Positions 670 through 61,070 of a DNA stretch of 64,000 nt are shown here, piece after piece. The translations under genes were made by a program, and so were the position numbers. The notes under the pieces were generated by a model. It had not been told where the DNA came from. It worked only from the letters and a program-made list of their open reading frames with translations, and made no database searches. Origin of the DNA: Cristatella mucedo (Eukaryota; Bryozoa; Phylactolaemata; Cristatellidae). Positions within the stretch are counted from its first letter, which is position 1; the number at the start of each line of letters is the position of its first letter. Location: contig WPIO01000071.1 in assembly GCA_009760855.2 (NCBI GenBank), positions 475,501-539,500 on the forward strand, given 5' to 3'.

Positions 670-784
670 AAGAAAGAAGAGATGGAGTCGAAGATACAGA
701 TGTTGGAGGAGTTGTGGCTGCAACCGTATGCAGTGTGGCATGCTGTGGAGCAGCTGTTGTGGGACTAGTAGTCTGCCGTAAGAG
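670..784 (+). CDS. Gene A transmembrane exon
   Basis: The exon encodes a short acidic/basic juxtamembrane stretch (EERRDGVEDTDV), then a Gly/Val/Ala/Cys-rich hydrophobic segment of about 22 residues ending in CRKR. The basic stop-transfer residues put the C-terminus in the cytoplasm. The segment contains a CC pair and further cysteines, unusual for a TM helix and a possible palmitoylation or dimer contact. A diverged copy lies at 31140-31255 in gene C. Confidence 0.72.
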
Positions 785-58303: not shown

Positions 58304-61070
58304 CTCTCTCTGTCTCTCTAAGTCCCTGACTTTTTTCTGTCTTCCTGTCTCTGTCTCTTGTTCTCTCTCCCGCCCTCTCGACAGTGCAGTAAGGACTGCG
58401 AGCCCTGATGTGCCGCCGAGTAGAGCGATGCTTAGAGCGGTAGAGCCCTGTGCTGAGAGACAATAGACCTGCATCGTGGGACAAAGCCGGCGATAACCGC
58501 ACACAAAAAGCTCACAGCGAGTAAGATTGAGCGCTCTTTCCCTACCACTTGCTTTAGATGGACTGGCCAAGGCCGATCTGGCCGCCGCCATTGCCGTCCC
58601 GTCGGCCTTCGTCATCCTTCTGCTGGCGGCCGTCGTCTCCGTCATCGTCTGCTGGAAGAGGTATGCGCGTCCGGCGGTGGCGGCCGCTCGAAATGTCGTG
58701 TCATCCGCGAAAGTGCATTTCCCCTTCGAACAAACTGCTGGTACACGATGTGCGTGTAAAGTATCTGCACGAACGTGTACGCATTCGTATATCTGTTGCC
58801 AGTCAGCGCGTATAATTACCGAAAGTCGTTAGACCGTCGGCACGGTCGGCAATCTTTCAGAGGCAACGGCGCCGAAATTTTTCATGTCGGCGTGCGAAGG
58901 AACACTGCTAAAGGAACACTGCATCAGCCCCTTCTATAGGACTACGCGTGCTTTATACGAATAGCTGATCTTGAACACAATCGACGCGCTTCCGAGCGAA
59001 ACTTTCGTAAAAACCAGCCAATTACCTTGATGCAGCTCATCGTATGCGTCGTCACGTTTTTACGGGCCCGAAACACTAGCATAAGTACTTGTAATTTGTA
59101 CCGCCGCAGTATTATGTAACAGGATAGTCAATACATATAGTGCATGCTGGTAGTGAAACCACTTTGGCTTGCTATAAATCGGACGTATACTGGAAGCGCT
59201 GTAGAAAATCAAGAGGTTCCCGAATTATATCAAATTAAAGTAAAGTGATAACGTCACGATCCATGGGTTTGATGCAAGTAACGGTTAATCAGTTGTACCT
59301 ACTTGGGCTTTGAAATCGGCAACTTTTTTGCTAATGCTGGTGACGTGCCCACGGGCCTCTCGGTCTCCGTATATAATGCTGGAGGTCAAGGACGTTGCCC
59401 TTATGGTTGCTCTAGGCCTGCCGAGCGTCAGATACTGAGTCGGTGTAATTGAGTGTTGCTTTTTATATACGTAAATAACATTTACGTAAATAAAACGTAA
59501 CTGCTCGTTTATTTATTTGCACTCAAAACTCGCTAGCCGCGCTTCCATACACTCGATGCACTAGGGCCTCGAGAGCCCAGGAGATAAGATCTGCTCGCAC
59601 TTCACAACTGAGGTCGTGCACTCGAAACCTGCTACGGGCGATTCTTTATTGCCAACTGTAAGCGATCCTTACAGTTTTCAAGGCTCTTCTGACGCTGTAC
59701 AAATGAGGCCGCTAAGTCAGCTCAGTAGATTATCCGCCGCCCGTCAGCTGCAAAGACTAGTGCACGTTACGTTGCGCCCCGCTTGCGGCAGAGGACTTTC
59801 TTAATTCAGCGGGCCTCAGCAATGCGCATCTTAAATGCAGTAATACAGTTAATTAATATTTAATATTATATATAGTATAATATAGTATAGTATATATATA
59901 TATCTATATATATATAATATATAGTTAATATTAATAAATGCCGCAATCTAGTATGCGCGATAAATACGATTACTTTGCAATCATCCTCATTATCGTCAAT
60001 AATTGTCGGAATGAGGATACGCTGCACCCCAATGGACGACTCCGTCCCGTACGGCGGCCCGCGCGAACAGCGAGTGCGCCCGCCCCGCTTCCCCCCCCCG
60101 CCTCCCCCGCCCCCCCCCCCCCCCCCCCGCCGACGTCGTAAGTAGTTCGCGCTTCGCCCGCCCGCCCGCCCGCCGGCGCTTCAGCAGCAGCCGTCGCGTT
60201 TCATTCAGGCACCTGATCATCGTGCTGCGAGTTCGTCCGCAGGCGGCGGCGACGGTGGTAGACGCCGGAGCGCCGCCCGAGTACGTCCCCGCCGCCGACG
60301 ACGACGAGCGACAGAGAAGCTTCTGGTCGCCTTGCTCCCGTTTCGCCGCGCCAGTTTGGCCTTGGTGCAAGAGCCAGCGCCGCGGCGGCGGCGGCGGCGC
60401 TCCGAGCGGAGGCTACGAGAGGCAGGCCGAGCGACGCCGCCAGCGCCGCCAGCGCCGCCGCCGCGGCGCAGACGAAGACGACGGAAGTCGGCGGAACTCG
60501 TACGCCGAGGTCCAGCATGGCGGCAGCGAATCGCCCTACGATACGCCGGCCGTCGACGACGATGCCGCGGACGCCGACGCAGACGCCTCGTCGGCGGTGG
60601 GCGTGATAGCGTCGGTGGAGCACATCTACGCGGCGCCGTTCGATTGCGCCGAGTCGAGCACGTACGTGGCCACGCCAGGGCCGCTCGGATCGCGGCATTG
60701 GGCCGAGTGCGGTGACCGCGAGGCGACGCCGCCGGCGGCCTGGATGGCCGAGCCGTGGGCGGCGGCGACGGCTGCGGCTGCAGATGGGGAGGAGGAGGCT
60801 TCAGCGGCTCAGAGTCGGTCGCGCGGCGCTCGGCCCGTTCTTCCGGTCGGACCCGCGACTCCGACCGGAGAGGCTGACGCCGCGGCGCCTGCGACGGCGC
60901 CTGCGACGGCAGCACCTTCGACGGCTGCGACGGCTGCTACATCCACTTCGGCGCCTGCGACCGCTGCGGAGGCTGCAGCAGCGGCCGCGGACTGGCCGCC
61001 TCCGCCCGAGAGCTACTATTTCATGGTCGAAAGAGACGCCGGCGGCGGCGGCGGAAGTAGCGACGGATGA
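45644..61070 (+). CDS. Gene D: complete four-exon GC-rich transmembrane receptor (579 aa predicted)
   Basis: Exons are 45644-45716 (signal peptide), 53741-54442 (ectodomain and stalk), 58558-58660 (TM) and 60209-61070 (tail), totalling 580 codons with the stop. Phases are 1, 1, 2, identical to gene B. The ectodomain begins with YPPFSLSC and has six cysteines in the family order. A poly-Ala run of 12 is inserted after the second cysteine, and a long low-complexity Ala/Thr/Gly/Pro stalk follows. One TM helix and a 287-residue tail with eight tyrosines complete it. Introns 1, 2 and 3 are about 8.0, 4.1 and 1.5 kb. High GC and Ala/Arg/Gly bias produce long spurious ORFs on both strands. The role is inferred: cell-surface receptor with possible lectin-like binding and phosphotyrosine signalling. 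Confidence 0.8.
47078..48010 (-). mobile_element. LINE family-2, longest coding copy, minus strand
   Basis: From the (ATA)n tail back through 3' UTR to a long [69 protein letters not shown]. Before it, in another frame, is [17 protein letters not shown], the region after the RT catalytic blocks. This defines the family as L2/CR1-like and distinct from the 21.9-kb element. Confidence 0.85.
48090..48240 (-). mobile_element. LINE endonuclease-region fragment, minus strand
   Basis: The minus strand reads [12 protein letters not shown], recalling the GDFNFP motif of AP-type endonucleases. An [11 protein letters not shown] word repeats on both sides of an ATT-rich tract (48000-48100), as if the element was deleted internally at matching words. 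Confidence 0.55.
48665..48718. repeat. 26-bp GC-rich tandem duplication
   Basis: Two copies of GCCGGCTCCAGC followed by ACGGCGCCGGTGGC. Confidence 0.85.
49600..49755 (-). mobile_element. tRNA-derived SINE, minus strand
   Basis: Minus-strand order is an A-box-like TGGTCCAGCGGTTAAGG, a B-box-like GGGGCTCGAGCC, then a 3' tail AAGTTCTCTTGGGGCGC and TATACAAATGAATT. The tail resembles the LINE 3' ends in this window, as expected of a SINE mobilised by such a LINE. Relatives are at 56997-57155 and 62795-62905. Confidence 0.72.
49905..50040. repeat. Polypurine GGAAGGAGAGA-type tract
   Basis: Purine-only imperfect repeat of GGAAGGAGAGAG words. Confidence 0.85.
50150..50345 (+). mobile_element. LINE family-2 3' end
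   Basis: 3' UTR words (GCTGCCACTGACCACACTTA, CATGTCACCCCTAA), then the shared terminus and ATT tail. Confidence 0.82.
50562..50650. repeat. (GT)n microsatellite
   Basis: Long TG array with one CTCTCTG interruption, preceded by imperfect TGTCTGTG repeats from about 50428. Confidence 0.95.
50827..51075. repeat. Tandem duplication of an ~80-bp block, spacing ~166 bp
   Basis: The block AATATATGGAAATGGTTGCG through AGCTTCGCGAAGAAGGCC occurs at about 50830 and again at about 50998, with one or two differences. Confidence 0.9.
51090..51192. repeat. (GA)n microsatellite
   Basis: Near-pure GA with CAGAGGCA interruptions. Confidence 0.95.
51990..53010 (-). mobile_element. LINE family-2, degenerate minus-strand copy
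   Basis: Follows the same order of landmarks as 47078-48010 (tail terminus, CATGC-rich UTR, GAATGAAGGGACCTAAAAGTG, CTCACGAAAGACAAGCC, GCTGATGTGGTCGTCTTG) but is more diverged. A (TA)n tract splits it at 52062-52102. Confidence 0.75.
53741..54442 (+). CDS. Gene D ectodomain exon
   Basis: The acceptor is TTCTTTAG and the donor TTCG|GTAAGA, phase 1 on both sides, 234 codons. Family landmarks: DYPPFSLSC, second cysteine four residues later, (Ala)12, [34 protein letters not shown]...GGC and [16 protein letters not shown]. The last resembles the C-G-[TS]-[YF]-KYL-V-Y-C end of SUEL lectin domains. One NVT sequon lies in the stalk. The frame continues open past the donor to 54612, but splicing is preferred because the TM exon restores the family structure. 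Confidence 0.78.
54795..54857 (+). mobile_element. LINE family-2 3'-tail relic
   Basis: ACTAAATTCTCTGAGAATGA, then CTTATCAAGTGTACT and (ATT)n. Confidence 0.65.
54911..56526. repeat. 23-bp minisatellite, about 70 copies
   Basis: The unit is TAACTACGGACC followed by TTAACTTAACG, almost without variation over 1.6 kb. One 17-bp unit lacking AACTTA occurs near 56018-56035. The right edge degrades into two 13-bp units (TTAACTACGGACC) before the array stops. It contains ACGT and TTAA palindromes at fixed positions. Confidence 0.97.
56997..57155 (-). mobile_element. tRNA-derived SINE, minus strand
   Basis: A diverged relative of the 49600-49755 element: CTCTCTATTCAGGTGCTTC, CGCATGGCTCG, AAGGTGAGCACCATAACCCC. 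Confidence 0.6.
57776..58320. repeat. TCTGTCTCTC 10-bp array and (CT)n tract
   Basis: About 15 perfect copies of the 10-mer TCTGTCTCTC (57781-57930), then nearly pure pyrimidine CT to about 58320. Opposite frames give meaningless Ser-Leu and Arg-Glu ORFs. Confidence 0.97.
58558..58660 (+). CDS. Gene D transmembrane exon
   Basis: The acceptor is GCTTTAG and the donor AAGAG|GTATGC; phase 1 in, phase 2 out, 103 bases. It encodes [18 protein letters not shown], then [17 protein letters not shown]: one hydrophobic helix with a basic stop-transfer, matching the A and C ending C-[RW]-K-R. Confidence 0.8.
58661..60208. other. Gene D intron 3
   Basis: Mixed composition with an AT-rich microsatellite at about 59860-59935 and a poly-C tract at about 60085-60130 just before the tail-exon acceptor. 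No gene is seen. Confidence 0.6.
60085..60130. repeat. Poly-C / CCCCG tract
   Basis: Runs of C broken by G and T about 80-120 bases upstream of the splice acceptor of the last exon; G-quadruplex-prone on the minus strand. Confidence 0.9.
60209..61070 (+). CDS. Gene D cytoplasmic-tail exon
   Basis: Starts R-H-L-I-I-V-L-R after the splice and is open for 287 codons to a TGA. Tyrosine contexts are EYVP, GYER, SYAEV, PYDTP, IYAAP, TYVATP and SYYFMV. PYDTP and IYAAP are Y-x-x-P motifs of the type bound by Crk-like SH2 domains, and SYYFMV fits the ITIM pattern S-x-Y-x-x-V. The tail also has Gly, Arg/Gln and Ala/Pro/Thr low-complexity runs. It does not align with the B/C tail outside these features. 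Confidence 0.75.

Follow-up and report, generated by a model that had tools for sequence, protein, structure and literature searches.

We describe part of a tandem array of genes for predicted receptor-like membrane proteins in the genome of the bryozoan Cristatella mucedo. The array was detected in a 64-kb stretch (hereinafter, the window) of contig WPIO01000071.1 (positions 475501-539500; C656 in our numbering), which consists of animal-type DNA with many transposable elements. We consider it probable that these genes form a tandem family specific to this lineage and encode type I receptors that cross the membrane once, are assembled from four modular exons and function in recognition. The two parts of this interpretation differ in strength: there is little doubt about the anatomy of a receptor cluster, and a role in immune or self/non-self recognition, which is suggested by analogy, is plausible though somewhat short of probable.

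A shared four-exon plan

An initial annotation of the window had proposed a tandem family of four receptor genes with one exon-phase plan, and such a plan holds both in the window and in genes beyond it. All six splice junctions that it named are of the GT-AG type, and both complete genes of the window, B and D, keep an open frame from the first exon to the fourth, the intron phases being 1-1-2. Gene B (340 amino acids; all exons and duplicated blocks of the family are on the plus strand, and coordinates are those of the window unless stated otherwise) consists of a signal peptide exon (8347..8410, leaving in phase 1), an exon for a six-cysteine ectodomain and stalk (10464..10925, phase 1 on both sides; an acceptor at 10482, also in phase 1, is possible in place of 10464), a transmembrane (TM) exon (11059..11185, phase 1 to 2) and a tail exon with YADI and one YxN motif (12832..13201, the stop codon ending at 13201). 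Gene D (579 amino acids) has the same succession of a signal peptide (45644..45716, phase 1 out), a six-cysteine ectodomain with an Ala-rich insert and a stalk (53741..54442, phase 1 on both sides), a TM segment (58558..58660, phase 1 to 2) and a long Ala/Arg-rich tail with several tyrosine motifs and a stop codon (60209..61070). Gene A, which is partial in the window, with a TM exon (670..784, phase 1 in, phase 2 out) and an exon for a tyrosine-rich tail with the stop codon (5607..5952), was said to fit the same plan. It does so when 100 kb of flanking DNA are added on each side (264 kb in all; 264-kb coordinates equal window coordinates plus 100000): a signal exon (window -11250..-11190, 264-kb 88750-88810) and an ectodomain exon (window -6852..-6355, 264-kb 93148-93645) complete a protein of 339 amino acids with phases 1-1-2. 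Gene F was not used in defining the plan and hence independently confirms it. Its four exons (264-kb 216543-216603, 220626-221117, 226593-226692 and 227189-227654) are open in phases 1-1-2 and encode 372 amino acids; the best-scoring ectodomain donor, at 221140 (phase 0), breaks the frame, and the second-best, at 221117 (phase 1), yields the full frame. For Y1, Y2, Y3, W and E, the gene models are partial; no phase-2 acceptor was found for the Y1 tail when one was looked for, and this tail was assigned by its order and appearance.

The plan also emerges from sequence scans. A mechanical scan of the 264-kb region for phase 1-to-2 TM exons, written with the plan already known, recovered six on the plus strand vs none on the minus strand and missed the known TM exons of B and C; each of the six follows an ectodomain exon of the family (that of Y2, Z, A, D, E or F). 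The six-cysteine pattern gave 18 raw matches on the plus strand and seven on the minus strand, and after filtering 11 (eight of them family members) and none, respectively. The best-scoring acceptor is in phase 1 in eight of nine ectodomain exons, with the exception of Y3, and the best-scoring donor in seven of nine, with the exceptions of C and F. Six of the seven tail exons have similar starts (RKLLCF, RQLIFF, RKLLFW, RHLIIV, RKIFCF), the second tail of gene Z being different. In leave-one-out profile comparisons, the A/C, D, B and Y2 types scored above all non-members, with expect values (E) from 8e-7 to 0.025. These types are linked only at this level. The sequences are, nevertheless, not all very different, as the initial annotation had described them: the ectodomain exon of gene C shares 88.9% DNA identity with that of A, and its tail shares 84% protein identity with that of B.

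The family is far larger than the four genes originally counted, and further copies lie outside the window. Single-protein searches of the genome (572 Mb, 688 contigs; matches to E 10), which relied on shared words, were run with six ectodomains (C, B, F, Y3, Y2 and Y1) and the B tail; the D ectodomain and the A and F tails lay outside these searches, and D was counted from the window itself. Together with the window, they place 13 distinct ectodomain-type exons, one partial and two in broken genes, on the plus strand of C656 over ~360 kb, and, since the searches depend on shared words, this number is a lower bound. These exons are located near 237.6 kb (93% like Y3), 268.1 kb (just 43 residues), 280.6 kb (88% like Y2), 378.2, 391.2, 421.3, 449.4, 468.7 and 486.0 kb, 501.5 kb (gene C, broken), 529.2 kb (gene D), 578.2 kb (gene E, with one stop) and 596.1 kb of the contig. 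The matches fell within the cluster in four of six cases for the C ectodomain, one of three each for B and F, three of three for Y3, one of two for Y1 and four of five for the B tail; five of the six Y2 matches are on the plus strand of C656, including the Y3 copy (E 0.119) and Y3 (E 5). Six off-contig loci (C88, C219, C222, C664, C687 and C144:1757467), the best being C88 with E 0.007, were read by eye and rejected as having no six-cysteine domain; three further off-contig matches, C144:2624887, C26 and C255, were outside that set. In addition, C656 carries a TM-like exon at ~437.3 kb and a B-like tail exon at ~438.6 kb (41% identity, E 1.6e-4). No ectodomain exon was recognized in their vicinity, and the pair may be a further gene or a relic.

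The encoded proteins are predicted to be type I membrane proteins with an N-terminal hydrophobic segment, the six-cysteine domain, a stalk, one TM segment with a basic end and a tail. In the eight open frames, stalks of up to 60 residues contain between 10 and 28 Ser and Thr residues, the lowest number being in D. The tails contain 6-10 tyrosines, and, in counts of five patterns in five tails (A, B, D, F and Y1, the Y1 exon border not having been found and the Z tails being left out; p values uncorrected), YxN occurs five times vs 0.96 in shuffled sequences (p 0.0005) and Yxx[ILV] ten times vs 4.4 (p 0.01). YxN is a docking motif of the Grb2 type.

Probable exon conversion, a mixed gene and surrounding features

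Gene Z, whose ectodomain is at 264-kb position 73926, upstream of A, is nearly identical to A across a tract of 0.7 kb with sharp bounds (~92940 to 93636 in 264-kb coordinates, ~98% identity) that spans the ectodomain exon. The exon is identical in 486 of 498 positions and the adjacent intron in 205 of 208, vs 449 of 590 (76%) in further intron sequence just upstream of the tract; the segment score was reached in none of 5000 permutations, and in the test on introns only, in none of 20000. In the part of the exon that encodes the cysteine domain, the synonymous (dS) and nonsynonymous (dN) divergences are 0.007 and 0.013, so synonymous change appears too low for protein-level selection alone to account for the identity. 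By contrast, a stretch of the TM exon is identical in only 79 of 100 positions, and both tails of Z differ from the A tail. This pattern indicates gene conversion that apparently copied the whole ectodomain exon. The two tail exons of Z follow one another, are both open and in phase 2, and comprise a B-like one of 47 residues with EYYNEI and an A-like one; alternative tails are thus a possible reading of the gene structure.

Gene C fits the plan, as had been proposed, once its frame breaks are allowed for. All four exon types are present: a probable signal peptide exon (15258..15312, phase 1 out), an A-type ectodomain exon (26032..26528) whose stalk portion is interrupted by a frame shift and a stop, an A-type TM exon (31140..31255) one base longer than that of A, and an open B-type tail exon (38321..38687; dN 0.086 and dS 0.213 relative to the B tail). 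The resemblance extends beyond the exons. The DNA that surrounds the TM exon of A (1..3995, as 1-3548 and 3606-3995) recurs in gene C at 30456-33980 and 34622-34994 with 80-81% identity, and a block around the B tail (12305..13545) recurs there at 37785-39041 with 82.5% identity, so that C combines A-like blocks at the ectodomain and TM exons with a B-like block at the tail. The joint of this mixed gene is flanked by copies of a single transposable-element family, a repeat with terminal (ATT)n. Gene C is a fused A-B copy that probably arose by deletion between phase-2 introns. An intact gene C through other donors was considered and rejected: the sole option that gives the full frame is CTC|GTTTTT, an implausible donor, which is why we treat the gene as broken and probably a pseudogene. 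Fusion and conversion, along with the weak links between types, agree with the rapid diversification postulated in the initial annotation.

Several other features of the region and of the assembly were recorded. The (ATT)n-ended repeats occur in many copies on both strands (11645-12303, 24974-25261, 36494-37138, 39725-40586, 41488-41931, 47076-47897 and others). A non-LTR (long terminal repeat) retrotransposon at 21870-24582, with endonuclease-like and reverse transcriptase frames, is split over frames; the 120 database proteins listed for its reverse transcriptase share 44-70% identity with it, and those that are named are mostly from fish. An intron of gene D contains ~70 copies of a 23-bp unit (54907-56509, 99% matches) and, beside them, a long CT-rich tract (57776-58319). 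To the right of gene F, at ~604-628 kb of the contig on the minus strand, haem peroxidase-like animal exons, apparently in two copies, were recognized by eye. Rfam searches found nothing. On the mitochondrial contig (C688), COX1 is read with TGA as Trp, with AGR at positions usually occupied by Ser and ATA at those usually occupied by Met, which would favor a protostome-like code over that of cnidarians or demosponges; COX1-like pieces are present in other contigs as well, and the G+C content of the locus is ~44%.

Affinities of the ectodomain and alternative explanations

The initial annotation had not recognized a named family, and the searches agree. Pfam gave no domain in eight proteins or pieces, and PDB sequences contained no relative of the B ectodomain, the sole piece tried. 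In a database of 5.8 billion proteins, in which only candidates with shared short words were scored, no relative was found for B to E 1 (7908 candidates scored) or for the A/B/F profile to E 10 (7995 candidates). That this database does hold animal proteins is shown by a control query, which yielded 7951 reverse transcriptases, with fish predominating among the named entries of the 120 listed. No publication on a family of this kind emerged from keyword searches of the open-access literature, which argues only weakly for its absence. One specific identity was examined, namely, a strongly diverged form of the SUEL (rhamnose-binding) lectin domain (PF02140), in which case these genes would encode lectin receptors. 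By eye, the ectodomain resembles SUEL in its last cysteine pair, in the spacing of that pair and in a short beta-like end, and the profile scored a probability of 1.8% against one SUEL domain of the same genome, vs at most 0.3% in 30 shuffles, and 2.4%, with no shuffle control, against three SUEL pieces. However, a probability of 2% is far below a match, Pfam SUEL did not match any of the eight proteins to E 10, although genuine SUEL domains exist in this genome, and the signature motifs of SUEL, YGR and C-x-G-x-x-x-C, are absent from the ectodomain. The lectin identity is not upheld, and we regard it as quite improbable. A classical SUEL domain, with YGR present, is encoded in another gene at C22:3650468-3650713.

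Several facts weigh against a family of recognition receptors. All the support comes from the sequence of a single assembly, and the structure predictions are of low confidence (pLDDT, the predicted local distance difference test, of 40 for the B ectodomain with three sequences and 37 for that of F with seven). In the tails, YxxP is not significantly enriched (6 vs 3.7 expected, p 0.16), the canonical immunoreceptor tyrosine-based inhibitory motif (ITIM) is at chance (1 vs 0.94 expected, in one of five tails, that of D), and the corresponding activation motif (ITAM) was not found in the five tails. Phase-1 borders are frequent in animal extracellular modules, so the plan alone is no proof of kinship, and in the leave-one-out comparisons Y3 ranks below one non-member, and F and Y1 rank below several. 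The ectodomain donor of gene A is weak (score 0.8), as is that of Y2, and copies C and E are broken. The weak donors and the broken copies would fit a relic cluster of mostly decayed copies with few working genes, which we hold to be very unlikely.

The doubts about kinship, along with C and D being 20 and 23% identical to B, could mean that Y1, Y3, F and, perhaps, D are unrelated receptors with a generic phase-1 plan, the true family being limited to A, Z, C, E and B. This appears unlikely in view of the six-cysteine order, strand, contig, exon order and phases that all these genes, including the complete gene F, have in common, the similar tail starts, and the retrieval of the Y3 copy and Y3 from 572 Mb by the Y2 query, albeit at marginal E values. 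More serious, if still less than likely, is the possibility of a fast-evolving tandem family of receptors or adhesion proteins with a non-immune function, such as gamete recognition, chemosensing or epithelial adhesion. Modular exons and gene conversion are to be expected from tandem arrangement alone, conversion and fusion being possible in any such array, no finding ties the family to immunity, and the canonical immune tail motifs are not enriched. On the other side are the coverage of the ectodomain exon by the A/Z conversion tract while the TM and tail exons differ, the enrichment of the tails in SH2-type motifs, and a similar pattern in paired immune receptors, as described in PMC12447643.

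The interpretation that we favor, a modular family of recognition receptors, implies a simple mode of operation. With phases 1-1-2, ectodomain, TM or tail modules are exchangeable without frame breakage, and recombination in introns could swap them whole. The ectodomain would bind a variable ligand, the tails would be phosphorylated and dock SH2 proteins through the YxN and YxxI/L/V motifs, and pairs like A and Z might present a single binding surface coupled to different signals, in the service of immune or self/non-self recognition. A bolder version, in which this is a recognition locus with an ectodomain outside the known receptor folds, independent of the immunoglobulin (Ig) superfamily, with exons moved between tandem genes and alternative phase-2 tails conveying opposite signals, strikes us as rather doubtful.

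Relationship to known recognition systems

The clustered Alr genes of Hydractinia encode type I TM proteins of recognition that carry tyrosine motifs and Ig-like ectodomains. The present array resembles it in being a tandem cluster of predicted type I TM genes with tyrosine-motif tails and differs in the ectodomain, no Ig model having been detected in the sequence-only Pfam search of eight proteins. ITIM/hemITAM motifs of Alr are mentioned in PMC12065747, which also describes the fester co-receptors (FcoR) of the fuhc locus of Botryllus. FcoR are multigene type I TM proteins with Ig and sushi domains; Y-x-x-I/L/V motifs occur in their long tails, and signalling motifs are swapped by alternative splicing. 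The likeness to the bryozoan genes lies in the multigene type I organization and the Y-x-x-I/L/V tails; the difference is that no Pfam domain was found in the cluster proteins and that FcoR has allorecognition genetics behind it, whereas the cluster is known from predicted genes.

For the mammalian paired receptors CD300A and CD300C, PMC12447643 describes like ectodomains homogenized by gene conversion, unlike tails, and a P/S/T-rich segment before the TM segment. A comparable arrangement, with ectodomains apparently made alike by conversion and with differing TM segments and tails, is found here in one pair, A and Z. However, CD300 has an Ig variable-type (IgV) domain and an inhibitory/activating pair, whereas in the cluster ITIMs are not enriched and opposing signals are not evident. 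Judging by its sequence, the cluster is not a member of the FcoR or CD300-type receptors because no Ig domain is detected in it.

The known clusters of variable type I receptors with tyrosine-based signalling belong mainly to families built on the Ig domain, such as KIR, LILR, CD300, FcoR and Alr. The bryozoan cluster seems to run the gene-level logic of these families, that is, modular 1-1-2 exons, exon conversion, mixed genes and, possibly, alternative tails, on an unrecognized domain. If this is a true recognition locus, exon modularity, rather than the Ig fold, is possibly what such systems converge on.

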